DNA of 59,409 nt from Acidobacteriota bacterium. Its GTDB lineage: Bacteria > Acidobacteriota > JAAYUB01. The notes beneath the pieces are model-generated. The model was not told where the DNA came from and made no database searches. It saw only the letters and a list, made by a program, of their open reading frames with translations. Made by a program: the position numbers and the translations under genes. Below, in pieces: positions 20,847 through 36,663 of the stretch (its first letter is position 1; each line of letters opens with the position of its first letter). Where the stretch lies: NCBI GenBank assembly GCA_016935015.1, contig JAFGRT010000005.1, positions 1 through 59,409 of the forward strand, written 5' to 3'.

Positions 20847-22856
20847 ATGCTTCAAATTTCCGCCGCCAACCACAATTTTCATTCCTCTGATCTCACCTTC
20901 GCGGACGAAAACTCCTTGCAGAAAATGGCCCGCAAGTGCCGGGGGGATATTTTGCGTATGACCACCCTAGCCGGGTGCGGTCATCCGGGGGGCGCCATGT
21001 CATCCGTGGACCTGCTGATTACCCTCTATGCCTGCGCCCGCGTAAATTCCACCCAGCCCGCTGATATGGAACGGGATCGCATCATCGTCAGTCACGGCCA
21101 TACTTCAGCCGGGGTTTATTCCGTCCTTGGAAATTTCGGCTTTTTCCCCATTGATGAAGCCATTGCCCATTTCCGACAGGCCGGCAGCCCCTATGAAGGA
21201 CACGTCGAGCATGGCCTGCCGGGCGTGGAATGGTCATCGGGCAATCTGGGCCAGGGTCTGTCGGCCGGTTGCGGCATGGCCGTGGCCAGTCTGGTTCATG
21301 ATCTCCGCAATCATGTATTCGTGCTCATGGGCGACGGCGAGCAGCAGAAGGGCCAGATTTCCGAAGCTCGCCGCTTCGCCGTCAAATACGGCCTCACCCA
21401 TCTGACCTGTGTTGTGGATCTGAACCAGCTGCAGATCAGCGGCAGTATCCGCCACGTCATGCCGCAGAATATCCGGGCGAATTTCGAGAGTGACGGCTGG
21501 CGGGTTCTGGAAATCGATGGCCACAATTTTCAGGAGATCTACCGTGCGTTTCACGAGGCGGTTCATGACCGGGATCACTGTGTGGCCATCATTTCCCGCA
21601 CCGTGATGGGCAAGGACGTCTCCTTCATGGAAAACGTCTGCAAATGGCACGGCCAGGCCCTGCCGGCCGATCTGTTCGCGCAGGCCATTGCTGAACTGGA
21701 GCAGGTCAACGATCTGGATCGCTACCGGCAACTGCGCCATCTGGGTACGGAGCATCTCACCATCCGACCACGGCCGCCATTCCAGCCGGATATCGCCACC
21801 GGCGGCAGTTTTCTCTACACCCCGGACAAACTGACCGACAACCGCAGCGCCTGGGGCAAGGCCCTGGCGGAGATCACCCGGCAGAATCTGGAGAGGGAAA
21901 GCGCCACCCCCATCGCCGTCTTCGACTGCGACCTGACCGGCAGCGTCAAGACCGACGGTTTCGCCGAAATAAACCCGCGCAATTTCTTTCAATCCGGCGT
22001 CATGGAGCATCATACCGCCGTGGCCGCCGGTGCCCTCTCCACCCAGGATGTTCTGGTTTTTTGGGCCGATTTCGGGGTTTTCGGCGTGGATGAAGTGTAT
22101 AATCAATTACGAATCAATGATATCAACGAAACGAATCTGAAACTGGTCTGCACGCATCTGGGAGTCGACGTCGGCGAAGACGGCAAAACGCATCATTGCA
22201 TCGATTACCTGGGGCTCCTCCACAACCTGTACCACTTCAAGACCATCATCCCCGCCGATCCCAATCAGACCGATCGGGCGGTCCGCTGGCTCATGCGGCA
22301 ACCGGGCAATATCTTTCTGGGCATGGGCCGCTCCAAATGTACGGTCATCACCAAACCGGACGGTTCCCCGTTCTTCGACGAACACTACACCTTTCACTAC
22401 GGCAAAGCCGATATCCTCCGCGAAGGGGCCGACATTTCGGTCATCACCATGGGCGCCATGGCGCATCATGCCGTGAACGTGGCCGACACGCTCGCGGCGG
22501 AGGGAATCGGCGCAGGCGTATATAATTTCAGTTGCGCCAAGCAAATGGATCTCGATACCCTGTCCCGTGCCTGTCAGACCGGACTGGTCATCACCTATGA
22601 GGACCATAACGTCCATACCGGCCTCGGCACGATGGTGGCCGACCTTCTCTGCCGGCACGGCCTGGCGGTGAAACTGCACAAGATGGGCATCCAGGACTAT
22701 GTCACGTCCGGCGAACCCAAGGACCTGCTGACCGCCGTCGGCCTGGATGAAAAAACCTTGAATCTAACCATTCGCCGGATGATCGAACAGTATGCGAAAT
22801 CGGTGAAGGAGACCTCGGATCTGGAAAAGACCGTCAAGCTCGCCAAAAATATCTAA
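20847..22856 (+). CDS. Transketolase family enzyme, full length
   Basis: This 669-residue thiamine-diphosphate enzyme carries both transketolase halves in one chain. The N-terminal half has the cofactor motif MGDGEQQKGQ followed by DLNQLQ. The second half has SGVMEHHTAVAAGAL with the catalytic glutamate, followed by LGVDVGEDGKTHH. Transketolases move two-carbon ketol units between sugar phosphates in the pentose phosphate pathway. Several conserved blocks deviate from textbook TktA (for example DLTGSVKT and GVMEHH), so it belongs to a divergent branch, and its exact donor is not certain. It is followed after 14 bases by the secreted cohesin-like gene. Confidence 0.85.
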   Translation: MLQISAANHNFHSSDLTFADENSLQKMARKCRGDILRMTTLAGCGHPGGAMSSVDLLITLYACARVNSTQPADMERDRIIVSHGHTSAGVYSVLGNFGFFPIDEAIAHFRQAGSPYEGHVEHGLPGVEWSSGNLGQGLSAGCGMAVASLVHDLRNHVFVLMGDGEQQKGQISEARRFAVKYGLTHLTCVVDLNQLQISGSIRHVMPQNIRANFESDGWRVLEIDGHNFQEIYRAFHEAVHDRDHCVAIISRTVMGKDVSFMENVCKWHGQALPADLFAQAIAELEQVNDLDRYRQLRHLGTEHLTIRPRPPFQPDIATGGSFLYTPDKLTDNRSAWGKALAEITRQNLERESATPIAVFDCDLTGSVKTDGFAEINPRNFFQSGVMEHHTAVAAGALSTQDVLVFWADFGVFGVDEVYNQLRINDINETNLKLVCTHLGVDVGEDGKTHHCIDYLGLLHNLYHFKTIIPADPNQTDRAVRWLMRQPGNIFLGMGRSKCTVITKPDGSPFFDEHYTFHYGKADILREGADISVITMGAMAHHAVNVADTLAAEGIGAGVYNFSCAKQMDLDTLSRACQTGLVITYEDHNVHTGLGTMVADLLCRHGLAVKLHKMGIQDYVTSGEPKDLLTAVGLDEKTLNLTIRRMIEQYAKSVKETSDLEKTVKLAKNI

Positions 22857-22870
22857 AGGAATGTTTCATC

Positions 22871-23635
22871 ATGAATAGACGTGTACTCGTAGACTGCCTG
22901 CTGCTCACCCTGTTGGTGGGACCGGGCGGCATTCTGACCATGGCCGCTCCGTCCGCCGCGGCGGGGAATACGGCCCTGATCATCAGTACCGGACCGGAAG
23001 CGGCCGCCGGCCAGGCTCAGGAACAGCAGGAGAAATCGGAGGAAAAAACCCCGCCGCCCAAACCGGAGCCGATCAAACCGACCAAACAGCAGAGTATCCG
23101 GGAACAGCTGGAGTCACGCCAGCTACCGGCCCGTCTGGAGGGCCAGGCCAGGCTCATCATGGACAAACCGTCGCCCAAGGAAGGCAATATCTACGAATTC
23201 CCCATCACCGTCGACCTGAAAAACGTGAAATTCATCGTGCAAGACACCCAGGTCATTCCCGGGGTGTTGGGTGCATACACTCTCGGCGTCAAATTCGATC
23301 CGCAAAAGGTGAAAGTGCTGGATATGGGGGGTGGTTCAACCAAGGAATTCGCCAAGCGACCCATTTTCACCAATCTTGAAAAAGCCAACGCTAGCGGCCT
23401 GATCCGATTTTCGGCCGTGCACACCAACTCCCGCACGCCCGCCGGCCGGATTTCCGTCGCCACCATCAAACTAGAGATCTCGGACCCGCAAGCCGTGGAC
23501 AGCGTGGAATTGTACGGCGATTCCCTATCGACCTCCATCCTGTTTTTCCCCGAAGGAAAAATTGTCGGCCCCTTCTCCATTCCGTTCGAGGGCAAACAGC
23601 TACCCCGGCGCACGGTACCCCAGCCGAAAAAATAG
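22871..23635 (+). CDS. Secreted cohesin-like domain protein
   Basis: This 254-residue protein has an N-terminal hydrophobic signal segment (about residues 5-30, ending near SAAAG). A Pro/Lys/Glu-rich linker (about 47-85) and a C-terminal beta-rich domain (about 95-240) follow. The domain resembles cohesin: EFPITVDLKNV, then GVLGAYTLGVKFDPQKVKVLD, then ASGLIRFSAV and GRISVATIKLEI match the usual order of strands (the second segment is quoted at 20-residue scale). Cohesins bind dockerins, and a dockerin-tailed protein is encoded at 31351-33642. No dockerin or catalytic part is seen here. It may share a transcript with the transketolase gene, and it ends at a strong terminator. The family call is moderate. 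Confidence 0.6.
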   Translation: MNRRVLVDCLLLTLLVGPGGILTMAAPSAAAGNTALIISTGPEAAAGQAQEQQEKSEEKTPPPKPEPIKPTKQQSIREQLESRQLPARLEGQARLIMDKPSPKEGNIYEFPITVDLKNVKFIVQDTQVIPGVLGAYTLGVKFDPQKVKVLDMGGGSTKEFAKRPIFTNLEKANASGLIRFSAVHTNSRTPAGRISVATIKLEISDPQAVDSVELYGDSLSTSILFFPEGKIVGPFSIPFEGKQLPRRTVPQPKK

Positions 23636-23663
23636 GCATTCTTCAGGCGATCGTGCGCATGAA

Positions 23664-23695
23664 AAAAAGGCGCTCTGCACAGAGCGCCTTTTTGT
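23664..23695. terminator. Bidirectional intrinsic terminator
   Basis: AAAAAGGCGCTCTG and CAGAGCGCCTTTTT form a 14-base-pair stem (23664-23677 with 23680-23693), with A-runs on the left and T-runs on the right. It serves both the cohesin-like gene on the plus strand and the CsgG-like gene on the minus strand, which converge here. Confidence 0.92.
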
Positions 23696-23715
23696 TCGAA
23701 AAAAGCAACAGCAGA

Positions 23716-24705
23716 TTACTGGATTTTGACTGTATCGCCTTCCTTGGGCATGTCGCCGTTGAGCATTTTCGCCTTGGACCGATCCGACTGAACTTCGAAC
23801 ACCATCATGGTGCCGGCTTCCATTTCTTCGGTATAGACGACCTGTCCTTCCGCGTTGGTAATGTCCTTGTTCTTGATAAGCACCAGCCGATCGCCTTCGC
23901 GCAAACCATTGGAGCTGCCCAGGCTGATGATGACCATATCACGGGAAACGACCGCCAGCACCTGTCCGGGTACCTTGCGCAAGGCTTCCAGGGCTTCTTC
24001 CTGGGCGGTGGCTTCCTGATCGGCCAATTGTTCGGCTCGGGAAGCGTGTTTTTCCAGGAAAGAGTGATCCATCTTTTCGATGATGTTGTTCATGGCCATG
24101 ATGGTCGCCTGGCCTACCATGCTTTCCCGGAATTCATTGGAAGAGATGTCCAGGGCGCCGGCGCCGGTACCCCATTTGCCGCCGCCAAAACTGATGCCTT
24201 TCTTGGAGTACTTGGCCTCGCCGTAATCGGCGTCGATGGTCTCACCGCTGGTGGCGTCGACGATCCGGTAATCGATACGAACATGGGCTTCCTTTTCCTT
24301 GTAATTGGTTCCGCCGAATACACCCTTGACGAAACCACCCGCCCCGACTTTTTTGTCACTGGCGCCAAAGTTGGTCACCTTGGCCAGAAAATAGTACTGA
24401 ACACCTTTGATGTGACCTTTTCTGACGGCCGACTGTTGCTCCACGTAGCCGGACTTGCCGAAATCCACTTCATCCAGCAGAGTGCCCACCTGAGCCCGTT
24501 CGATGATGTTGTAATGCCTGGTTTTGACCAGTTCGGTGATGAACATGTCCGTCAACCCGGTGCCCACGGTGGAATTGTAATAATTGGGCGGATTTTCGAA
24601 TGTCTTCACGGCCATGACCGGTTTCCCCGATTGTGCCTGCAGAACGCCAATCGCCGGGATCATCAAGGTCGCCAGAATCAGCATAGTTTGAATTGATCGT
24701 CGCAT
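23716..24705 (-). CDS. CsgG/HfaB-family secreted protein
   Basis: This 329-residue protein has a signal segment (about residues 1-24, ending LQAQ). A CsgG/HfaB domain follows, with GKPVMAVKTFENPP, GTGLTDMFITELVKT, YNIIERAQVGTLLDEVDFGK and GVQYYFLAKVTNFG. A C-terminal part (about 245-329; VLAVVSRDMVIISLG, LREGDRLVL, EGDTVKIQ) resembles the FlgT C-terminal fold. CsgG itself is a lipoprotein pore for curli export, but I see no lipobox here. This is more likely a periplasmic or outer-membrane-associated relative. The ATG at 24705 has AAGGAGG six bases upstream; the open frame reaching 24882 is not used. No curli subunit gene is near. Confidence 0.82.
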   Translation of the reverse strand: MRRSIQTMLILATLMIPAIGVLQAQSGKPVMAVKTFENPPNYYNSTVGTGLTDMFITELVKTRHYNIIERAQVGTLLDEVDFGKSGYVEQQSAVRKGHIKGVQYYFLAKVTNFGASDKKVGAGGFVKGVFGGTNYKEKEAHVRIDYRIVDATSGETIDADYGEAKYSKKGISFGGGKWGTGAGALDISSNEFRESMVGQATIMAMNNIIEKMDHSFLEKHASRAEQLADQEATAQEEALEALRKVPGQVLAVVSRDMVIISLGSSNGLREGDRLVLIKNKDITNAEGQVVYTEEMEAGTMMVFEVQSDRSKAKMLNGDMPKEGDTVKIQ

Positions 24706-24884
24706 GGATCGCCTCCTTGAATATGTAGGAAAGTATCTTCCTTGAAACGCTCTTCCCGATAACTTATCGAACATGCCGGCCGAAGGTTGTCTATTTTGTC
24801 TGCGTCCCCGGCACACATCGTTCGCTCGTCTCGGAAAGCCTGCCTCCCCCCGTTTGATCTGCTCAGAGGGGATACGGCACACCT

Positions 24885-24914
24885 ATTTTAATCACATCCC
24901 CCCTTCGGAATCAA
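24885..24914 (-). promoter_or_regulatory. Candidate promoter of the CsgG-like gene, within a non-coding gap
   Basis: On the minus strand TTGATT (24909-24914) and TAAAAT (24885-24890) are 18 bases apart, leaving a leader of about 175 bases. The 325-base gap 24706-25030 also holds a small hairpin, CATCCG-gttga-CGGATG, near 24918-24934. I found no gene in it. Confidence 0.4.
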
Positions 24915-25030
24915 GTACCATCCGGTTGACGGATGCGATTCGGGGAGAGCAACTGAGCAGCCATCGCCGACGCCCATGCGGGCCTGACTTTCTTTCAACG
25001 ACCCGATGGGAGGGAGATGCGGCAGGAGCA

Positions 25031-26530
25031 TCAGTCATTGTCGTGAGGACGCCGCCAGAATGGGAGCATGGGCTGCAGATCCGGCCGGTCACCCACCCGG
25101 CGCGGCGGGACCCTTCGCCAGCGGGGCGTGCCCCGTGACGCGATTTCGCCGCGGGTGAAGGTCGGATTCAACAGCTCCCGCAAGAACTGTTTGTCGACCG
25201 TGGGAATATCGGGCAACCGTTCATGACGCCACGTATCGGGTAACCATTCAAAAACGGCTTCCATTACCCCCGTCTCCGCGTGCCGGCGGGTACGGGCCAC
25301 CAGCAGGCTGTCGTCCGGCACCTGATTCACCACCAGAGGCGAGTGCGTGGTGATGAGGATCTGGTGCAGGGCGTTATCAGGGCCGACGGCATGGAACACG
25401 TCCGTGGCCATGCCGTGCAGAAAGCGGACCAAACCGCCCAGGCGCCGGGCATCCTGTCCGGACTCTGGATTCTCGATACAGACCAGGCCGCCCGGGCCCG
25501 CGGGCAGGGCCGCGGTCATCATCCCCAGAAAGAGGAGGGTCCCTCCTCCAGTCTGGCCGGCGCCGCGCGCCATACCACCGGTATCCACCACCTCCACATC
25601 CAGCCGATGGCGGATCGAATCGCAGCGCAGGCGAACCGCCGTCACGTTCTCCAGCAACTCCCCCGCCAGCCGCGACAACTCGCCCGCGTCGCGGGTCATG
25701 ACCTCGGCGGAAGCAGGCAGCGGTTCATTCGAAGACCGGCGCAGCAGGGTGGCCGGCAAATGACAACCCGTCATGGTCAGCCGTGGTCGGATGGTCAGTT
25801 CGTCCGGTTGTTGGAGCGCGGCGGGCTGCAAGCGGAAAACCTGCCACGAGCCGATCTCCTGGCGGACCAGCATGGCGGTGGGATTTTCCTCGCCATTGAC
25901 GGTGGAAAGGGCCGTCCGCGTCGCGCCCGCCAGCGGAATGACCCGCGGTCGGCCACCGCTGCCGTCCTGATTCAGCCGAATGATGGTTCGGGAGCCTTCC
26001 GTTTCGGTGGTAATGAAGGGGGTCGCCCGACGCCCGTGCATGACGGAGCGACGCCAGGAATTGGCTCGGTGTGGAAACCAGAGGTGCAGGTGGGCATCAC
26101 CGATATTGATATGATCCAGGTGCTCGGAGCGGAGCTCCAGTCGGCGGCAGGGCCGATGGGGATCTTCTTCCGCCCGCCCAATCACCAGCGAGTAGCGCAC
26201 CAGGGTGATGCCGGCCTCAACCCGCCAGCCATAAGGGTCTTCGCCTTCGTGAGGAATGATCATCTCGGCGGCGATGGCGACTTCCGGCATGGCATACTCC
26301 CCCCGGCGGGCGAAGAGCCGTCGCAGATCCGTCGCCTCACCGTCGTCGGGCAACATCCGCCGGGCGGCTCCCGCCAGGGTGTCCTCGGTCAGGGCCTGCA
26401 TAAAGCGGAGGGCATCCAGCAGATTGGATTTACCCGTATCCCCGCTGCCGGTGATACAGGTAAACGGCCCAAAGCGAACATCCACATCCACCAGGTTTTT
26501 GAAACCGGATATCTGCAACCGGGTCAGCAT
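25031..26530 (-). CDS. RecF/OLD-like AAA ATPase, stand-alone
   Basis: This 499-residue protein starts MLTRLQISGFKNLVDVDVRF and has a Walker A, GSGDTGKSNLLDALRF, the typical N-terminus of RecF/SMC/OLD-type ATPases. Near the C-terminus GLVCIENPESG serves as Walker B, and ITTHSPLVVN as the switch histidine region. The middle (about residues 80-330) is poorly conserved. No TOPRIM or other nuclease domain is visible, and no partner gene is adjacent, so it is not a recognisable OLD or Gabija system. The ATG at 26530 has GGAGA at good spacing; a TTG at 26542 is the alternative. The function is unknown. Confidence 0.75.
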   Translation of the reverse strand: MLTRLQISGFKNLVDVDVRFGPFTCITGSGDTGKSNLLDALRFMQALTEDTLAGAARRMLPDDGEATDLRRLFARRGEYAMPEVAIAAEMIIPHEGEDPYGWRVEAGITLVRYSLVIGRAEEDPHRPCRRLELRSEHLDHINIGDAHLHLWFPHRANSWRRSVMHGRRATPFITTETEGSRTIIRLNQDGSGGRPRVIPLAGATRTALSTVNGEENPTAMLVRQEIGSWQVFRLQPAALQQPDELTIRPRLTMTGCHLPATLLRRSSNEPLPASAEVMTRDAGELSRLAGELLENVTAVRLRCDSIRHRLDVEVVDTGGMARGAGQTGGGTLLFLGMMTAALPAGPGGLVCIENPESGQDARRLGGLVRFLHGMATDVFHAVGPDNALHQILITTHSPLVVNQVPDDSLLVARTRRHAETGVMEAVFEWLPDTWRHERLPDIPTVDKQFLRELLNPTFTRGEIASRGTPRWRRVPPRRVGDRPDLQPMLPFWRRPHDND

Positions 26531-26694
26531 AAATATCTCCAATGCTGAGTTGGATTTGTTCTCATTGTACCCCGATGTTGCGCGGATTGCAACGCCCGGT
26601 CCGCCGGCCGTCGGAATGATTCTTCGCCTGAATCCGGACCGAGGTGTGATTCATAGTATAATGTATTGGAAATCGCATATAACGGGAGGCACCC

Positions 26695-27933
26695 ATGAAG
26701 CACATCGGAATCATCCTGCTGGCGTGGACGTTCCTGGCCATGTCGGCGACACTGGCGCAGGCGGATTTGGACACCCTGCCCCTCGGCACCTCGCCCCTCC
26801 GGATGTCCCTGGCCACAGTGGCCGAGGGGAAGATGGTACGGACAGTTGATTTGCAGGAGGTCGGTGTCGACGACATCGTCAGCCAGAACCCGGACACCGA
26901 CGTCTTCATCATCGGCGAATTTCACGACAACTATGCCTGTCATGCATTCCAGCGTGATTTCATCGAGGCTCTGTATCGCCGGCATCCCAAGCTCATCGTC
27001 GGTTTTGAATTTTTCACCCGCGACCAGAACGAGTACCTGGCCGCCTGGCGGAGCGGCACCATCTCCGAAGCGGAGCTACTGGAACGCACCGAATGGTATG
27101 AACGTACCGGTCAGAATTTCGGTTTCACTCGTCTGATCATGGACTTCATCCGCGAGAACGGCATCCAGACCATCGGTCTCAACGTCCCGCGGGACATGGT
27201 CCGCATCGTGTCTACCCAGGGCTTCGACAAACTGCCCCCCGAGCATCAGCGGCTGTTCCCCACCCTCGATATGCCCAATCCTGACCATGAATATTACATC
27301 AAGACCATCTTCGGCGAAACAGCCGTCAAGATGGACGCCTGGTTCACCAACATGTACGCTGCCCAGAAGTGCTGGGACGTCATCATGGCCGAATCCATGC
27401 GCGAACTCCTGGCCCGGGACGAATACAACGGCTACAAAGGTGTGATTATCGCCGGCCGGGCCCATGTGGCCTACGGCCTGGGCATCCCTTTCCGTTATCG
27501 CCAGGCGGCGCCGGACGTCAACCTCAGCTTGCTCATCCCGGTATTCGCGCCGGAAACCCCAGAGGACGGCGAAGAGGACGAGAGCGCGCACCCCATGATG
27601 AAAGCCATGGCCGGGATGACCAGACCGGCGACAGTTTTCTCCCTTGGCATCGGGGATTACGTCTTCAGCGTCCCCCGTGAGACGGGCCATTATCCGACCC
27701 TTGGCGTCATGCTCAAGTTTGAGGCGGGAGCACTGCGGGTCACCCATGTAAATGACGACAGCCTGGCGGCGGAAGCCGGACTCGAGGAAGGGGATCTCAT
27801 CATGACCATCAACGGCCAAAGCATCCAGAGCCTGGGCCATTTTCGGCAGGAATTCGCCGGGCTGGTGTGGGATGAGGTTTTGGAGCTGGATGTCCGTAAA
27901 AAAATCAAGCTGCGCCGGGAACAGGAACCCTGA
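26695..27933 (+). CDS. ChaN-like domain fused to PDZ domain, exported
   Basis: This 412-residue protein has a signal peptide (residues 1-23, ending AQA). A ChaN/Tiki-superfamily domain (about 45-290) shows the IIGEFHDN motif early and GRAHVAYGLG late, the paired histidine motifs of the fold. A PDZ domain (about 340-408) has LGVMLKFEAG, AAEAGLEEGDLIMTINGQSI. ChaN is a haem-binding periplasmic lipoprotein and Tiki proteins are proteases; which activity applies here is open. GGGAGG lies five bases before the ATG. A TATAAT at 26657-26662 lies 33 bases upstream, without a clear -35 element. It is divergent from the ATPase gene. Confidence 0.8.
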   Translation: MKHIGIILLAWTFLAMSATLAQADLDTLPLGTSPLRMSLATVAEGKMVRTVDLQEVGVDDIVSQNPDTDVFIIGEFHDNYACHAFQRDFIEALYRRHPKLIVGFEFFTRDQNEYLAAWRSGTISEAELLERTEWYERTGQNFGFTRLIMDFIRENGIQTIGLNVPRDMVRIVSTQGFDKLPPEHQRLFPTLDMPNPDHEYYIKTIFGETAVKMDAWFTNMYAAQKCWDVIMAESMRELLARDEYNGYKGVIIAGRAHVAYGLGIPFRYRQAAPDVNLSLLIPVFAPETPEDGEEDESAHPMMKAMAGMTRPATVFSLGIGDYVFSVPRETGHYPTLGVMLKFEAGALRVTHVNDDSLAAEAGLEEGDLIMTINGQSIQSLGHFRQEFAGLVWDEVLELDVRKKIKLRREQEP

Positions 27934-27954
27934 CATTCACCGTTTCGTTATATC

Positions 27955-27983
27955 TTGCTTTCCTCCTTGATTCATATTATGAT
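27955..27983 (+). promoter_or_regulatory. Candidate promoter of the GNAT gene
   Basis: TTGCTT at 27955-27960 and TATGAT at 27978-27983 are 17 bases apart. It gives a leader of about 140 bases before the GNAT start. Confidence 0.55.
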
Positions 27984-28132
27984 AACGGAAAAGTTGCAGG
28001 GTTATTTATGGACCCATCATCACCATCAGACATATGCCTCAAAGCGTTCATCATCTGCCGCGCCGGCTGCCGGCGTCGGGGCGCTCGTGGCGGTTTCTGT
28101 TCGCCAAATTTTCATCACCGGGAGGAATATCC

Positions 28133-28573
28133 ATGATTGCACCGGCCTCAGAAGCGGAACTACCGCTACTGATGGAAATCGAGCGAAAAACCTTCTTGAC
28201 CGATCAATTTTCCGAAGCATTGTATCTGAGTTTCATTGTCCAGCCTGACATAGAGGTTTATCTGTACCGGGCCGGCGGCAACGCCCAGGGATCACTGGTG
28301 CTGAAATTCGCTGAGGACGACACACTCTGCCAGGTGATTTCCATCGCGGTGCCCCCCGCATATCAGGGCCAAGGCCTGGGCAAGGAACTGATGTTGTTTA
28401 CCGAAGAGCGGGCGCGGGAGAAAAAACGGGATCAGATCCAGCTGGAAGTACGCTCCAACAACATGCGGGCCATGGAGCTCTACGAATCGCTGCAGTATAT
28501 GGAACACAAGATTTTGCGTGATTTCTACGGACCCGGAATCGACGGGATCCGTTATATCAAGTGCCTGACCTGA
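28133..28573 (+). CDS. GNAT-family N-acetyltransferase (RimI-like)
   Basis: This 146-residue acetyl-CoA-dependent acetyltransferase has the acetyl-CoA loop VPPAYQGQGLGKELM (motif A, Q/R-x-x-G-x-G/A) and the C-terminal NNMRAMELYESLQY (motif B), as in RimI-type enzymes. The substrate is not predictable. GGAGGAAT precedes the ATG at 28133, so the longer frame from 28034 is not used. A hairpin without a T-run follows at 28581-28606. Confidence 0.82.
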   Translation: MIAPASEAELPLLMEIERKTFLTDQFSEALYLSFIVQPDIEVYLYRAGGNAQGSLVLKFAEDDTLCQVISIAVPPAYQGQGLGKELMLFTEERAREKKRDQIQLEVRSNNMRAMELYESLQYMEHKILRDFYGPGIDGIRYIKCLT

Positions 28574-28580
28574 GGGGCCT

Positions 28581-28606
28581 GCCTGGCGGGCTCGTCCCCA
28601 CCAGGC
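28581..28606 (+). terminator. Possible terminator hairpin after the GNAT gene
   Basis: GCCTGGCGGG and CCCACCAGGC pair with one mismatch around about six bases. It lacks a T-tract, so it may only be an mRNA-end stabiliser. Confidence 0.35.
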
Positions 28607-28736
28607 AACGTCCATCCCCCTCAACGCAATGGAAGTTGCGCTGTTTTTAATCGGCATTCCCCATCCGGCGGGTTGGCCCCATCGTCTCCCGCGGCACCCC
28701 CCCGCTATCCTTCCTCCCCGGTTTTCATCTCCGCCG

Positions 28737-28764
28737 TTGCCTTTTCAAGAATCTTTAGTAAAAT
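28737..28764 (+). promoter_or_regulatory. Candidate promoter of the lytic transglycosylase
   Basis: TTGCCT at 28737-28742 and TAAAAT at 28759-28764 are spaced by 16 bases. Its position argues against any start codon before about 28771 and supports the ATG at 28805. Confidence 0.5.
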
Positions 28765-28804
28765 GGTTGATTTAGACCTGATAGACAGGGTGGTCGGTGC
28801 ATCG

Positions 28805-31273
28805 ATGAAGCCAAGCCAAACACTTTTCTCTTTCGTTCCGCTCCTCCCCCGGAAGACCCGGCGGCGGCTGTTGCTCGTCCTGGCGGGGCTGGCCGTTGCC
28901 GCCTCAGCGGTCCGGGGAGGGGGTGAACCGTTCGATCCGGCCGTTCTGCCCACCCTGGAAACGTGTGTACAAACCCTGGCCGAACAACCGGCTGAGTACC
29001 GGGCCCAGCATCTCTATCTGCGGCATGCCCACCTGCTGGTGCGGGCGGGGCGTGCGGCCGAGGCCATCCCCATCTACGATTCATGGGCCAAAGAGGATCC
29101 GCTGTTTGCCGATTTTCTGCTGATGAAGAAAGCCGAGCTGCTGCTGGCTGCCGGTGACGGCGTCGCCGCCCGCAAAAACTTTTACGCCATCGTCAACCGT
29201 CATCGTCACTCCCCCTATCGGGACGAGGCCTATTTCCAGCTGGCCCGCAGCTATCAGGCTGACGGGAAGCTGGATCTGGCTGCCCGCACTTACAACGGCT
29301 ACCTCAAGGCCGACATGGCGCGGCGCCTGGAAGCTTCCCTGGAACTGGCTCGGGTCCGCATCGCCCAGCAAGACTGGCCCAGGGCCTGCATCAATCTGGA
29401 ACGTATCCTCACCGCCCGCCGAAATCCGCGTCAGCGGCTCGCCGCGGCGCTGCTTATCATCCGGTATGACCCTTTGCGAACCTACTTCGCCGGGCGGGAA
29501 TCCCTGTACGCCCGGCTGGTGGGCACGCTGCACGCCAATCGCCAGGTGGATCATCTGCTGCCGCTGCTCACGGATCTGCTGAAACGCTATCCCCGATCAC
29601 GGGATGTGGCGCAGCATACATACTGGTTAGGCCGTTACTACTTCTTTATCAACGACTACAAGATGGCCCTGCTGTATTACCGCCAGGCCGCCTCCTACCA
29701 TGACCGGGACATCACCGTGCAGAGCCACTTGTCCATGGCACGCATCCTTTCCCTGACCGACCAGGACGCCGAAGCACGAAAACTCCTGATCCGACTGGTG
29801 GAGAGCGAGGACCACGCCAAACAGTCCGGCCCCCTGTGGCAAACCCTGCACAATCTGGCGCGCCGGGTGGGCGAAACGGAAGCAGCCATCGCCTTCCTGC
29901 AACAGGGGATCCGTCACGTCAGCGGTGAATGGGACCACCGACTGCGCTACCGGCTGGCCCATTTCCTCCTGAGTCAGGAAAAATATGCCGAGGCCGCCGA
30001 TGAGCTCCGGCCGCTGATCCATGATCTGCCGGCCGGACCGGGCGGCACCCTGCCGGGAAAATCGGAGGGACGGTTTTTCCTGGGACTGTGTTTGGCCCGG
30101 CTGGGAGACACTGAAGAAGCATTGCGCATTTGGTCCAACGCCGCCTACGTGCGGGACGATGCCTACAGCTTCATGGCCATGCGCCAGGCCGGCGAGCTCC
30201 TTCGCGAGCAACCGGCGCTGCGGGACAAGGTGGCCCGGACGCACTGGAACGAATTTACCCGTCAGGCGGGACGGCACAATGACTATGCCGCCCTGGTGGA
30301 ACTCGCCCGATACTATTTCCTGACGGCGGACCGGACAAACTGGGAAAAAGGGCTGGCCCTCCTGCGGCGTTATGAGGAAAGTTTCGGGGAACTGCTCTCC
30401 ATCCGCGTGCTGGACAGTTCACCACTACCCCTGAAAAAATCACCGGCGCCCGGCAGTCATGAATCCACCCTCTACCGGGCCCGGACGTTTCATCGTCTCG
30501 GCTTGGCCGAAGCCGCCGGCGAGGAGTACCCCCGCCTGAACCTCGGGTATCTGGCTGATCAGACGGATATCAGCCGGGATCAGGCCGCCCTGGATCGGGC
30601 CTACACCCTGACACTCCTCTACCGGAAGGCGGGTCTCAACGCGCCGGCGCACCGCTGGGCCTATCAGCTCATCGCCCGCTACCCCCGCCATGTACCCTTT
30701 CCCATGATCAACCCGGAAATATCGGCCCTGTACTACCCGGACCTTTTCCGCGAAACCATCCTCAGGTACTGCCAGGCCTACCAGGTGGATCCAACCTATG
30801 TTTACGGGCTGATCTTTCAGGAAAGCCGTTTTGATCCCCTCGCCCACTCCGCTGTTTCAGCGCGGGGACTGATGCAGCTCATGGCGACGACGGCCGAGCA
30901 GGTGGCCCGGCAGCACAAATTGCCGGCGGTGGGTGATCCCAACCGGCTGTATGATCCCGAACTGAATCTGCAACTGGGTATTCTGCACCTCAAGGATCTG
31001 CTCCAGACTCTGGAACATCCGGCGGCCGTGGCTGCCGCCTACAATGCCGGGGAATCCCAGGCCCGCCTGTGGAAGAGTCTGTCCCGGCGTCCCCTCGATC
31101 TGTACTACGTTCCGGAGATCACCTTTTCCCAAACACGCCAGTATGCCGTCCTGGTGCTGGCCAACGTGGAAATGTACCGCTGGCTGTATCCCGAATTCGC
31201 CCAGGTGCTGCAGGCTGCCCGGGAAGAGCCTTCGGGACGGCCGGCGAGTCGTCCGTCCGGACCGGACCATTGA
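28805..31273 (+). CDS. Soluble lytic murein transglycosylase (Slt-like)
   Basis: This 822-residue exported enzyme should cleave peptidoglycan glycan strands with formation of 1,6-anhydro ends. An N-terminal hydrophobic segment (about residues 22-38) is followed by a long alpha-helical, TPR-like superhelix (about 45-620), as in Slt70. The catalytic SLT domain is near the C-terminus: IFQESRFDPLAHS with the catalytic glutamate, ARGLMQLMATTA, and VAAAYNAGES. At 822 residues it is longer than E. coli Slt70 (about 620 residues), mainly in the helical part. The Shine-Dalgarno sequence is weak. Confidence 0.87.
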   Translation: MKPSQTLFSFVPLLPRKTRRRLLLVLAGLAVAASAVRGGGEPFDPAVLPTLETCVQTLAEQPAEYRAQHLYLRHAHLLVRAGRAAEAIPIYDSWAKEDPLFADFLLMKKAELLLAAGDGVAARKNFYAIVNRHRHSPYRDEAYFQLARSYQADGKLDLAARTYNGYLKADMARRLEASLELARVRIAQQDWPRACINLERILTARRNPRQRLAAALLIIRYDPLRTYFAGRESLYARLVGTLHANRQVDHLLPLLTDLLKRYPRSRDVAQHTYWLGRYYFFINDYKMALLYYRQAASYHDRDITVQSHLSMARILSLTDQDAEARKLLIRLVESEDHAKQSGPLWQTLHNLARRVGETEAAIAFLQQGIRHVSGEWDHRLRYRLAHFLLSQEKYAEAADELRPLIHDLPAGPGGTLPGKSEGRFFLGLCLARLGDTEEALRIWSNAAYVRDDAYSFMAMRQAGELLREQPALRDKVARTHWNEFTRQAGRHNDYAALVELARYYFLTADRTNWEKGLALLRRYEESFGELLSIRVLDSSPLPLKKSPAPGSHESTLYRARTFHRLGLAEAAGEEYPRLNLGYLADQTDISRDQAALDRAYTLTLLYRKAGLNAPAHRWAYQLIARYPRHVPFPMINPEISALYYPDLFRETILRYCQAYQVDPTYVYGLIFQESRFDPLAHSAVSARGLMQLMATTAEQVARQHKLPAVGDPNRLYDPELNLQLGILHLKDLLQTLEHPAAVAAAYNAGESQARLWKSLSRRPLDLYYVPEITFSQTRQYAVLVLANVEMYRWLYPEFAQVLQAAREEPSGRPASRPSGPDH

Positions 31274-31350
31274 GTCGCCGGGCCACTGCAGAATCCATCC
31301 TTCCCCACCCCTCTCCAGACCCTCCGTGAACTTCGTCCACCTCCGGCAAA

Positions 31351-33642
31351 TCACTGCAATATGTTTTCTGAAAGTACGTTGGACATGAGCACCAGGTCCA
31401 GGGCCGTCACGACCCCATCTGCGTTCACGTCTGCGGCCATGAGTGACTCGGTGAACGGCTCTGCGCCATGGATGATATTCCCGGCCAGGTAGTGATGAAG
31501 AATGACTGCATCAGCCGCTGACAACTGGCCGCTGCCACTGAGATCTCCCGGAATATAGGTGGCCGTATTCGGATCTTCGGTCGTGAAACAAATGCTGACA
31601 GCGGTGTATTTGGCCTGCGAGTATGACCAGTAATCGTGCACCTGTTTGAAATAGCCGTGGTGATAATACAGGGTGGCCTCATATTCGTGGCTATGGATCA
31701 GAGGACTGAATCCCCAGGTGGAAACACTCGCATTTTCCAACAGGATGTCATCCGACACCCGGCCCATGGTTTCGTCCATGATGAGAAGCTGCTGGGCGTT
31801 GACCGATCCATCCGTCACCGGTGACCATTGAAACGTCACATCGGTTTGTACATCGGTCTGGCTGTTGATGGGATGGATGAAAGCCGGCACCTGCGACGGC
31901 TGAGGAAGGGGCGCAGCCGTACCGGGTATGCCAAAGAGAAATTCGGTTTGTGCCAGAAATCCTTCGAGATCCATCTCCAGCAGGTATACGCCGTCGCCAT
32001 AAATGTCCAGATCACCGGCCAGGGGACTGTCGTGGGTATAGCTCCAGATTCCCGGTGGACCAATGGACAGGTCATACCAGTTGCCACCAGGGACTTGAAC
32101 ATGAGCCATGCCGACAGTGATGCCGTTATCCACCAGGAACTTGGCGTCGACGGTCATCGAAAACCGCCAGGTGTCCGCTGAACCGCCGGGATGGCAAATG
32201 AGACCCTTCATGATGGTGAAGCCCAAGGACGTACCGGAAAAGGAAAATGTCCCCAGAATACCTTCCTCGGCGCAATGAGCGGCCATATCGCAGACCTGAT
32301 CACCATTCAGGCTGACGTTGTAATCGCCGATGTCGTTCTCATCCCAAACACCGTCCGGGGCCGGGATTTCATAGATGACATCCCAGAACCAGTGGTTCGG
32401 GGCCAAGAAGGCGACCGCCTCGACATGGACGAACTCGGCCCCTTCACTATAGTCATTCGGTCCAGTGACATGGATATCGGCTCCGTCGAGTGTCGATTCA
32501 TTCAGGATCCCTTCATCGGTATATCGAATCTGCAATTGAAAACTCTCGGTGCCGAAAGCCGGCTGATCCTCCACGAGTTCCGCTTCAGGCGGTGCTTCGT
32601 CTACCCGGGGAATGAGAACACACGGCCTGTAATTAGCTTCTTTCCCATAGCCGGCCCAACCACAGATCCATCCGTGATCATTGATACCGTTGGCCCGGGC
32701 GATGCGCCAGCCGAAGGGTCGAGAAACAATACTGAGATCGATCAGCTTCCGATCGAAACCTGTCCACAACACCGCCCGGTTGTCCAGGGTTCCAACAACA
32801 TCACCACGGCTGTTGATGTCATAGGCAATGGAATTCATGGTTTCCAAGGGCGTCTCCAGCACAAGCGGCGGATAACCTGCCTCCCACAGAGTGGCATGCC
32901 AGATGACGGGAGCCGCCGAGAATTCAGTCCACCCCACGACGGTACCGTCATTGTTGATGGCCAGCGCCTTGCCTCGATCGCGGTATCCCGGAGGAACCGG
33001 AAGAATTTCCAGACCTCCGGCAGAACCCTTGACCGGCCTGCAATAGTCGATGGTGCCACAGATCTGGTCCAGATCGTTGATGAAGTAAAACTCACCATGA
33101 TGGTTCACTTCACCGATCCTCGTACCGGAGGTGCCGCCGGTCCACAAAGTGATGTAGATTCCTTCATCATAGGTCACTCCGACCACATGGTTCTGGGAGT
33201 TGATGCCGAAGGCCGCCCCACCCTGCGCGTCACCCAGGTCGCCCCAGGTTCGACCCACTCCATCGTAGCGGTAAGGCCGGCTGCTTGTGGTACTGTTGTG
33301 GTGAAACTGTCCCACCACATATCCCTCATCGTTGATATCCCAGGCAGATGACGGATACGGATAGGGGTCGCCATGGAAGGATTCGGTGATGCTGTGCGTT
33401 TCCCCGTCACCGATCACGTCATTCAGATCCCAAAAAACGTAATGCGAAACACCGTCGACACTCACCATGCCGACAATTTGTCCCAAATTGTTGATCTGGT
33501 AGGCGTGACCGGCCTCATTACCATACAATTCCAAGAAATGGATGTCATACACGGTGCCCGAATCCGCCAGCGCAACGGCCGGAAACAGGCAGAAAAACAG
33601 GGAGACGAGGGCTCCCGGGAGCGACCACATGGAATGAATCAT
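31351..33642 (-). CDS. Secreted HAF-repeat protein with C-terminal dockerin
   Basis: This 763-residue protein has a signal peptide (residues 1-26, ending ALA). About seven HAF-type repeats (40-350) follow, with the recurring pattern of a short AxxIN(N/D)xGxVVG stretch: AYQINNLGQIVG, AWDINDEGYVVG, AFGINSQNHVVG, AYDINSRGDVVG. The middle (about 355-660) has Ig-like or beta-sandwich features. The last 65 residues are a type-I dockerin with two EF-hand-like repeats, GDLSGSGQLSAADAVILHHY and ADVNADGVVTALDLVLMSN. Dockerins bind cohesins, and a cohesin-like protein is encoded at 22871-23635. GGAG lies nine bases before the ATG. It is divergent from the propeller gene at 34033. Confidence 0.82.
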   Translation of the reverse strand: MIHSMWSLPGALVSLFFCLFPAVALADSGTVYDIHFLELYGNEAGHAYQINNLGQIVGMVSVDGVSHYVFWDLNDVIGDGETHSITESFHGDPYPYPSSAWDINDEGYVVGQFHHNSTTSSRPYRYDGVGRTWGDLGDAQGGAAFGINSQNHVVGVTYDEGIYITLWTGGTSGTRIGEVNHHGEFYFINDLDQICGTIDYCRPVKGSAGGLEILPVPPGYRDRGKALAINNDGTVVGWTEFSAAPVIWHATLWEAGYPPLVLETPLETMNSIAYDINSRGDVVGTLDNRAVLWTGFDRKLIDLSIVSRPFGWRIARANGINDHGWICGWAGYGKEANYRPCVLIPRVDEAPPEAELVEDQPAFGTESFQLQIRYTDEGILNESTLDGADIHVTGPNDYSEGAEFVHVEAVAFLAPNHWFWDVIYEIPAPDGVWDENDIGDYNVSLNGDQVCDMAAHCAEEGILGTFSFSGTSLGFTIMKGLICHPGGSADTWRFSMTVDAKFLVDNGITVGMAHVQVPGGNWYDLSIGPPGIWSYTHDSPLAGDLDIYGDGVYLLEMDLEGFLAQTEFLFGIPGTAAPLPQPSQVPAFIHPINSQTDVQTDVTFQWSPVTDGSVNAQQLLIMDETMGRVSDDILLENASVSTWGFSPLIHSHEYEATLYYHHGYFKQVHDYWSYSQAKYTAVSICFTTEDPNTATYIPGDLSGSGQLSAADAVILHHYLAGNIIHGAEPFTESLMAADVNADGVVTALDLVLMSNVLSENILQ

Positions 33643-34032: not shown

Positions 34033-36663
34033 ATGACATGGAAATACCACCTTGTAGCCATCGGCATCCTGGTTCTGCTGTCCGCTCTGCCCACCGCCGC
34101 GCAGATCACCACTCCCATGGGCGAGGTCATGGCCGGCGATGAAGATTACGGCTACTGGAACAACGTGGCTTTTACACCGGATGGTACCCGCGGCCTGGTG
34201 ACCGATCCACAAAATGACCGCGTCATTATTTTCGATCCCCGTCGTCTCTTTGACAACATCGAGGCTGTTTTTTATCTGGGCACCACCGGCGCCGAACCGG
34301 CCGCTTTGGCCATCGATCCTACCGGCCAGCATGCCTGCATTCTGAATATCAACAACGACACGGTTACCATCATCCGACTGGCCGATTACCAGTCCGTAAC
34401 CTACATCCCACCGATCAACACGGATTTCGCCGTCTGGAACAACATCGCCTTCACCCCCAGCGGCCAGTACGGCTTCGTGTGTGATGCCCGGCCGACGGCC
34501 AACCGGCTGCATATTTTCCGCGTCACCACCACCACGACGAACCTGCATCATCAAACCCTCCTCACCGGCACCGGACCGGCCCGGACCTACGTGTCGCCGA
34601 CGGGCGACAAGGCCTTCATCGTCTGCAACGGCCTTACCGTCAACGATCAGATCACTGTTGTCAACCTGCTGAACGAACCGGGCTTTTCCACCCTGAACAC
34701 GTTCTCCGTCGTCGACGCCGATCTGGACCGGGTAGTAGACAGCCGGGTCATGTACAACAACCTGGTTTTCGCGCCCAACGGCAGCATGGGGTACATCTGT
34801 GACCCGCTTTACAACGATGTGGTGGCCTTCGGCATCCCCGACTACGCCAACCAGCCCTATCTCGACCTGCCCTTCGAGGGAAACGGCCCTACCGATGCGA
34901 GTCTCAGCCGGATTGCCGTGACCCCCGACGGCCAGACCCTGCTGGTATGCTCAACCTGGCAGGACCAGGTGCACTTCGTGGATCGCAACACCCTCTCCTA
35001 TCTGGGACGGATCCAGGATCCCCTGGTGGATTTCGACGCTTACAACTCCTTCGCCTTCTCCGCCGGCGGACAGCGCGCTTTCATCGGCTCGGTCGGCAGT
35101 GCCGAAGTATTGGAACTGGACCTGGCTACGGGCGCCGTGTTGCGCTATCTGGCCACCGGTGCCGGACCGGAAACGCTGGCCGTCACTACCGACGGCCGTT
35201 TCCTGAGCAGCATCAACGTGTTCGACGATAATATCTCCCTCTTTTGCCTGAATCCGCACATCATCAACATTCCCTTCTTCCGCACCAGCGCCGAGGAGTA
35301 CACCGGTTACGGTATCAGCAACGCCTCGGCCGAACCCCTCTCGTTCATCGCCACCGCCCTGGACACCGCCGGACAGCCGATGAACGGCACGAGCAACCCG
35401 GTGGAAGCCGTCCTCGACCCCCTGACCCAGCTGCCTTTCATCGGCGGACAGTTCTTCGGACTGCCGGAAAATCCGCCCGAGGGCTGGATCCAGATCATCA
35501 GCAACAGCCCCGAGGCGCGGGCCTTCTTTCTGAACACCAACATGACGGGCGACTACATGGACGGCACGGTGACGGACGCCGATTTGTATCTGGATTTCAT
35601 CGTCACCCACGTCCGCGAAAACTACCAGCTGGGGACGTCCACGGAACAGACGGAACTCTACCTGGTCAATCCGTATAACTACCCTGTAGATCTGCGCCTG
35701 GCCCTCCACAACAGCGACGGCAGCGAGCGGGCGTTCCTCCAAACCACCCTCGTCGGCGGCGAGGTGTTCAGCGGCACCATGCGGGAACTGTTCCTGCGGG
35801 ATGAGACCTTTTTCGATCTTGCTCCCGCCTATGTGACCGGCACGGTGACCAACGACGGCGCAGGCGTCGCCGGTTTCGCCCGGGTCATCCACCGGGAACC
35901 CGTCAAGGCCGACGCCATCCGGACCATGCACAGCCTCCCCCTGCAGCGCGTGTTGCCCGTCGATACCCTCTACTGCCCCCACCTGGCCAGCGGCGGCACA
36001 GAAGAGCAATTCGCCATCCCCTACGAGACGGTCTTTCACATCCTGAATCTCTCCGGAGCCGAGGCGGAGATCACGTTCACCCTGTATGACGATCATTCCG
36101 ATGACACGTTCCAGGCCGTCCGTACCCTGGCCGACGGCGAGCAGTTCAGCCGCCCGGCCTGGCAATTGTTCGGGCTGCCGGATCCCGCTGGACGTCCGCC
36201 GTACATCACGGGCGACGTCATCATCCGCAGCGACCGGCCGGGGATCATCGGCGACGTGATCTTCGGCGATGGTCTGAACTCCACACCTTGGGTGGAATCG
36301 TGTCTCGCCTTGTACCAGCAGACCTTTCAGCGGGCCGTGTTCAGTCATGTCGCCCATGGTCCGGCCGATGAGAGCGGCGATGTGCTCTACATCAACGGCA
36401 TCAGCCTGTCCAATCCGGGCGACAGCCAGATCCAGATTCAGGTCCGGGTGTACCGGGAGACGGGGGTTCTCACCGGCAGCAATGTGGTCACCCTGCCTCC
36501 TCACAGCCGACTGCTGCGCCTGCTGGATGCCCCCGAGCTGGTGCCGGCCGCCTGGGGCCAGCTGGGCGGGTACGTGGTGGCGGAGAGCACCGGGCAATTT
36601 GTGGCTTTCGAGTTGTTTATCGACAACCAGAACCGGTTCATGTCGGCGGTGCCCCGCAACTGA
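34033..36663 (+). CDS. Secreted beta-propeller (YVTN-like) protein
   Basis: This 876-residue protein has a signal peptide (residues 1-23, ending TAAQ). The first half (about 30-410) is a propeller of YVTN-like repeats, with recurrent segments such as NNVAFTPDGTRGLVTD, NNIAFTPSGQYGFVCD, SRIAVTPDGQTLLVCS and LAVTTDGRFL. The second half (about 415-876) is beta-rich without a known name; it contains repeated patterns such as ELYLVNPYNYPVDLRLALH and VLYINGISLSNPGDSQIQIQ. No catalytic motif or anchor is seen. It probably acts outside the cell as a binding or surface-layer-type protein. Two small exported genes follow in the same direction. Confidence 0.75.
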   Translation: MTWKYHLVAIGILVLLSALPTAAQITTPMGEVMAGDEDYGYWNNVAFTPDGTRGLVTDPQNDRVIIFDPRRLFDNIEAVFYLGTTGAEPAALAIDPTGQHACILNINNDTVTIIRLADYQSVTYIPPINTDFAVWNNIAFTPSGQYGFVCDARPTANRLHIFRVTTTTTNLHHQTLLTGTGPARTYVSPTGDKAFIVCNGLTVNDQITVVNLLNEPGFSTLNTFSVVDADLDRVVDSRVMYNNLVFAPNGSMGYICDPLYNDVVAFGIPDYANQPYLDLPFEGNGPTDASLSRIAVTPDGQTLLVCSTWQDQVHFVDRNTLSYLGRIQDPLVDFDAYNSFAFSAGGQRAFIGSVGSAEVLELDLATGAVLRYLATGAGPETLAVTTDGRFLSSINVFDDNISLFCLNPHIINIPFFRTSAEEYTGYGISNASAEPLSFIATALDTAGQPMNGTSNPVEAVLDPLTQLPFIGGQFFGLPENPPEGWIQIISNSPEARAFFLNTNMTGDYMDGTVTDADLYLDFIVTHVRENYQLGTSTEQTELYLVNPYNYPVDLRLALHNSDGSERAFLQTTLVGGEVFSGTMRELFLRDETFFDLAPAYVTGTVTNDGAGVAGFARVIHREPVKADAIRTMHSLPLQRVLPVDTLYCPHLASGGTEEQFAIPYETVFHILNLSGAEAEITFTLYDDHSDDTFQAVRTLADGEQFSRPAWQLFGLPDPAGRPPYITGDVIIRSDRPGIIGDVIFGDGLNSTPWVESCLALYQQTFQRAVFSHVAHGPADESGDVLYINGISLSNPGDSQIQIQVRVYRETGVLTGSNVVTLPPHSRLLRLLDAPELVPAAWGQLGGYVVAESTGQFVAFELFIDNQNRFMSAVPRN

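Follow-up and report, generated by a model that had tools for sequence, protein, structure and literature searches.

Cohesins and dockerins that are not part of cellulosomes are well documented in both archaea and bacteria, according to the passage of PMC9012536 that cites Peer et al. (2009). We analyzed a 59,409-nucleotide stretch (the window; contig JAFGRT010000005.1, positions 1 to 59,409) of a genome from an uncultured Acidobacteriota order (GCA_016935015.1, hereafter G000; 4.75 Mb, 237 contigs, 96.8% complete), which encodes a small cohesin-like protein and, on the opposite strand, a larger protein ending in a dockerin (Table 1). We consider it reasonably probable that both genes are parts of a cohesin-dockerin system in this order that is non-cellulosomal and spans the whole genome.

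Among the described systems, the non-cellulosomal cohesin of Archaeoglobus fulgidus (2xdh) is likewise single and matches the model of the window cohesin-like protein (Foldseek E 1.9e-4; VIA-align Z 11.2). It is archaeal, however, and the archaeal versions are reported to form specific, strong bonds (work cited in the corresponding passage of PMC9012536), whereas here more than 50 dockerins occur and binding is putative. In the cellulosome-like complex of Candidatus Stygibacter (Cloacimonadota), as outlined in the relevant passages of PMC8542988, secreted enzymes likewise carry C-terminal dockerins; these include C25 peptidases, one of them gingipain-like, and S8/S53 peptidases. The same passages describe a 3,755-amino-acid (aa) tandem-cohesin scaffoldin, whereas only single cohesin-like domains were found in G000. 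Anaerobic methanotrophic (ANME) archaea, in the account excerpted from PMC9012536, also have many dockerin proteins without cellulose degradation, but differ in having up to five cohesins per protein and a cargo that includes ABC-transporter binding proteins. Clostridial type I/II cellulosomes have in common with our case the cohesin fold and the dockerin sequence family; unlike them, G000 has no multi-cohesin scaffoldin that we found and one GH44 domain among 60 dockerin-bearing open reading frames (ORFs). Single-cohesin proteins together with many dockerins and few cellulases also occur in genomes treated in the main text of PMC11557425 (Lachnoclostridium sp. MSJ-17), a text in which the string "acidobacteri" does not appear. 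An Acidobacteria genome survey names dockerin once in the part relevant here, in a supplementary figure legend on carbohydrate-active gene counts (PMC5900883), and among the titles and abstract openings of the literature on Acidobacteriota none was found to describe such a cohesin-dockerin system. The G000 case is set apart in three ways: no scaffoldin was detected, Pfam mostly misses its cohesin family, and related genomes show the gene-pair arrangement.

The cohesin-like and dockerin proteins of the window

The window cohesin-like protein begins, as judged by eye, with a signal-peptide-like N-terminus followed by a Lys/Pro/Glu-rich linker. Residues 84-254 were modeled by AlphaFold2, from an input of four sequences, with a mean predicted local distance difference test (pLDDT) score of 83.5 and a predicted template modeling (pTM) score of 0.78. 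A Foldseek search of the PDB with this model returned cohesins at all ranks from 1 to 20 (best E 1.7e-5) and the chitin-binding domain 2czn at rank 21. VIA-align superimposed it on the 1ohz cohesin with Z 11.5 and a root-mean-square deviation of 2.7 over 126 residues; rows 1-46 of that list are cohesin entries throughout, and other folds (4hss, 4hsq, 5fx8, and 7l0o; Z 7.9-8.3) begin at Z 8.3. The first-pass annotation had proposed a cohesin-like beta domain here and had made its reading depend on the cohesin fold, which the predicted model indeed displays. The protein is thus predicted to have a cohesin fold, and its dockerin binding is putative.

At the level of sequence the relationship is distant, with 6-23% identity to known cohesins in the structural alignments. 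The protein itself matches no Pfam and no NCBIfam family, and a sequence search of the PDB gave a single weak match, the ScaC cohesin 4uyp (E 0.13). A homology chain runs in two steps, from the window protein to a relative in genome G004 (L040; E 1.1e-7), and from this relative to Pfam Cohesin (28.1 bits, above the cut-off of 24.1); another relative, in G152, reaches 32.2 bits with the same profile. Orthologues with 47-52% identity were found in four of the five order-mates, and a tblastn search against plasmids gave no matches.

In the second protein, the dockerin profile PF00404 matches residues 698-757 with 39.1 bits (cut-off 22.9; E 8.4e-10), and the best PDB match of this region is the ScaB dockerin 4uyq_B (E 5.7e-5). 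By eye, loop 2 retains the Asp/Asn/Asp/Asp ligands, and loop 1 has Ser at two of these positions; a single-sequence model of the domain (pLDDT 50.2) was too poor for use. An additional HAF repeat lies at residues 226-243, and about 450 residues of other sequence separate the HAF region from the dockerin. On sequence grounds, the C-terminus is a type I dockerin, and the architecture previously suggested, namely two EF-hand-type repeats behind HAF repeats, was recovered, the HAF/DUF3466 matches being N-terminal.

Dockerins and cohesins of the genome

A count of the dockerins, along the lines proposed in the first-pass annotation, gave 69 matches in G000 at E<=1, of which 56 lie over the Pfam cut-off. 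After six weak rows (E 0.011-0.9) were dropped, the 63 rows analyzed corresponded to 60 distinct ORFs, sub-threshold rows included. A type I dockerin forms the end of about 50 secreted-type proteins; the first 51 rows correspond to 51 ORFs, and in 44 of these the domain lies within 15 residues of the C-terminus. Pfam recognized 78 families over the 60 ORFs, and among the 25 families listed, peptidases recur: C25 in 6/60, papain-like C1 in 3/60, and M14, M28, S15, and penicillin amidase in one ORF each, together with fn3, beta-helix, FG-GAP, and beta-propeller domains. At E<=1e-8, with every family listed for three batches of 20 ORFs, the sole glycoside hydrolase catalytic family was GH44, in one ORF, accompanied by a glucodextranase B domain and CBM96 on dockerin ORFs; no set of dockerin-bearing cellulases was found among the 60. 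As a separate observation, a contig of G000 (L089:4409-5755, contig C134) carries what by eye are an ECF-type (extracytoplasmic function) sigma factor gene and, directly after it, a gene for a membrane anti-sigma-like protein with a sub-threshold dockerin (19.9 bits) in its C-terminal part.

On the receptor side, a profile of the window cohesin family found two domains in G000, one in the window (C59) and one on contig C71; a third match was at chance level (E 0.35). The Pfam Cohesin profile (PF00963) gave one match, below threshold, in a 1,481-aa frame in which a dockerin and a VWA domain are also present. Neither profile detected a multi-cohesin scaffoldin, although one could have been missed in an assembly of this completeness and contig number. 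A classical cellulosome was therefore rejected, since neither such a scaffoldin nor a cellulase set was found. The C71-type protein, of about 500-680 aa with a related cohesin-like domain at its N-terminus, occurs in G000 and in the four order-mates that have an orthologue of the window protein; L040 of G004 is one of these proteins. In the C71 protein, the cohesin-like domain is followed by a module of about 450 aa, and we infer that this module keeps proteins at the surface. It is present at 26 places in G000, one of them the C-terminal half of a window protein (34033-36663; E 1e-33, with 30% identity in an alignment of 530 aa). The module is common to large G000 proteins with differing N-terminal parts, as a possible second surface tag. 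One 1,478-aa protein (L049:1044-5477, contig C119) combines a beta-propeller, a VWA domain, a sub-threshold cohesin, and a dockerin.

Linkage of the cohesin family to dockerins across the phylum

An extended profile of the cohesin family (A5) gave 31 matches in 13 of 396 genomes of the phylum. Thirty of these loci were scanned with a hidden Markov model built from the G000 dockerins; the match G371:C13 had no locus and was left out, and G175:C80 lies at a contig end, where the neighbor on one side is not visible. At 6/30 loci the cohesin-like gene has an immediate same-strand dockerin neighbor (G202, two separate copies in G175, G112, G004:C197, and G318). Measured between the first possible start and the stop codons, the two genes are separated by 74 bases in G202, 9 and 40 bases in G175, and 13 bases in G004, and overlap by 8 bases in G112 and 4 bases in G318. 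At two further loci, both in G152, a cohesin-like domain and a dockerin share one frame, and one of these fusions (L113) exceeds both Pfam cut-offs, for Cohesin and for Dockerin. Thus, adjacency or fusion was found at 8/30 loci, in six genomes (G004, G112, G152, G175, G202, and G318) belonging to five families, against about 0.24 adjacent loci expected by chance, a rough figure that mixes dockerin counts at different E-value limits and assumes a gene roughly every 1,050 bases. This excess supports a functional link between the cohesin family and dockerins. When only the partners that reach the Pfam cut-off are counted (three, one of which needs its frame neighbors), the hand-calculated P against 0.24 is about 0.002.

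In G318, a protein with a Pfam cohesin (50.7 bits) and, by eye, a lipoprotein-like start is likewise encoded after a dockerin gene. With 41 dockerin matches at E<=1 and 14 Pfam cohesin matches at E<=0.1 (C115, C126, C238, C318), several of the latter in a single frame, this genome possibly harbors a true scaffoldin system. The row in G112 (L112:310-3222), in which identities other than that of the cohesin were assigned by eye, comprises genes for a sigma factor-like protein, a membrane protein with a degenerate dockerin, the overlapping cohesin-like protein, and a VWA-like protein; signaling from docking to transcription is a possible reading of this row. About ten small secreted-type cohesin-like proteins were seen in G371 (L148, L158, L162, L165, L166, L167) and G197 (L111, L159, L164); those examined by eye end in a conserved half-dockerin-like tail, YDL..P.G.ID..DL.KL..C, and a Pfam scan of one of them (L148) yielded no family.

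Dockerin counts were also compared in 33 genomes picked by hand from 59 relatives. At E<=1e-3, the order-mates G001-G005 have 12-20 matches, against 0-4 in the 28 other genomes. At the same limit, at least one dockerin is present in 13/13 genomes with the cohesin family vs 12/29 without it (Fisher P 0.0004), which favors the link between the two. Genomes that lack the window cohesin family, e.g., G010 and G023, also contain cohesins that exceed the Pfam threshold, which means that other cohesins exist in the phylum.

Possible function and alternative explanations

In the system that we favor, dockerins would act as C-terminal docking tags on secreted proteins and would be received by cohesin-like proteins; peptidases and other secreted proteins would dock through their tags onto these receptors in a calcium-dependent manner. 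The window cohesin-like protein would serve as a soluble, single-socket receptor and the C71 protein as a larger receptor, perhaps held at the surface, so that peptidases and binding proteins, once secreted, would stay on the cell or close to it. Binding of the window dockerin to the window cohesin would possibly be only one among many tag-socket pairings. We regard as unlikely a more far-reaching form of this idea, in which the dockerin of this Gram-negative order is a general address tag on about 50 secreted proteins, chiefly peptidases, in which two cohesin proteins, a soluble one and one carried by the shared surface module, are its dedicated receptors, and in which dockerins also present on ECF anti-sigma factors (C134 and the G112 row) would allow docking outside the cell to be reported to transcription. 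If the favored system exists, the cohesin-dockerin interaction would serve secreted proteins, and perhaps signaling, as a general tag and socket rather than being mainly a tool for cellulose. Dockerins with no known partner are found in many environmental genomes, and a divergent cohesin family, mostly missed by the standard profile and found beside dockerins in several genomes, offers concrete partner candidates.

Several observations weigh against a genome-wide system of this kind. No further domain or anchor was seen in the window cohesin-like protein, and searches of PDB sequences with cohesin-family profiles retrieved no cohesins. The usual recognition positions of the G000 dockerins vary (Ala at position 10 in 36/60; 14 different residues at position 11), which gives no sign of a single tight specificity. 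Among the six adjacent partners, just two exceed the Pfam Dockerin cut-off of 22.9 bits as whole proteins (30.2 and 23.5); a third scores 21.3 bits alone and 24.3 with its neighbors in frame, and the remaining three reach 18.1, 17.0, and 14.7 bits. In the order itself, 11/12 loci, the window gene among them, adjoin no dockerin gene, and G005 has 12 dockerins but no match to the cohesin family. Finally, the comparison of genomes with and without the cohesin family ignores relatedness, and the 33 genomes counted for dockerins are a hand-picked sample.

An alternative that we judge less probable but that deserves serious consideration is that C-terminal dockerins act without a cohesin, as calcium-stabilized tails, dimerization pieces, or export/retention signals, and that the cohesin-like family is separate, its dockerin binding lost or never acquired. 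It would account for the imbalance in G000 between more than 50 dockerins and two cohesin-like proteins of the window family, with no Pfam cohesin over the cut-off, for the unlinked state of the window pair in relatives, and for G005, although that genome is 82% complete and contains a sub-threshold Pfam cohesin match in a 623-aa frame. The recurring adjacency to and fusion with dockerins in six genomes from five families speaks against it. The same linkage, together with the unbroken run of cohesins before other folds appear in the VIA-align list, makes it rather improbable that the beta domain, although related to cohesins, binds something else (a glycan or some other protein), like other members of this broad sandwich fold; such a ligand would fit the low identity to known cohesins, the presence of 2czn in the Foldseek list, and the conserved genomic company within the own family, which consists of transketolase and CsgG genes and not of dockerins.

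A dedicated local pairing of the two window genes is very improbable. They are 7.7 kb apart, close to the distance of about 8 kb noted in the first-pass annotation, but five genes lie in between, and because G000 has 56 above-threshold dockerin matches, the chance that some dockerin gene falls this close to any one gene is about 15-16% (51-55 dockerin genes in the genome). In two related loci (L044 and L045) the cohesin-like gene stands, as in the window, between a transketolase gene and an opposite-strand CsgG gene, and no relative of the window dockerin gene occurs in about 10 kb on either side; a third locus (L046) has only the cohesin-like gene in common with the window. The absence of the dockerin gene from these three neighborhoods indicates that the pairing seen in the window is not conserved, and the nearness of the two genes (P ~0.15) was rejected as evidence. 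Of the small non-cellulosomal module suggested earlier, the non-cellulosomal character is supported by the predicted cohesin fold, by the dockerin, and by a dockerin cargo of peptidases and beta-propeller or beta-helix proteins rather than cellulases; a module of two genes lacks support, given the synteny and the more than 50 dockerins. The reported lack of a nearby glycosidase was borne out by a Pfam scan of 30 window ORFs, which found no glycoside hydrolases.

Table 1. Coordinates of the features discussed, in window positions.
Feature	Position	Strand	Remarks
Cohesin-like protein, secreted-type, single-domain	22871-23635	+	254 aa; exact ORF match
Cohesin-fold domain (predicted), residues 84-254	23120-23632	+	AlphaFold model with Foldseek and VIA-align matches
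Dockerin protein, secreted-type, with a HAF-type region near the N-terminus and the dockerin at the C-terminus	31351-33642	-	763 aa; exact ORF match
Type I dockerin, two EF-hand-like repeats	31372-31551	-	PF00404; stops 6 aa short of the C-terminus
DUF3466/HAF-type repeat region, residues 45-118	33289-33510	-	Pfam/NCBIfam matches
Transketolase-like gene	20847-22856	+	Ends 14 bases before the cohesin-like gene; context, outside the system
Lytic transglycosylase (SLT)	28673-31273		Window ORF
Neighbor divergent from the dockerin gene	34033-36663	+	C-terminal half (~35272-36654) is the module also found in the C71 protein

Elsewhere in the window, positions 26695-27933 encode one protein that combines a ChaN-like heme-binding domain with a C-terminal PDZ domain.

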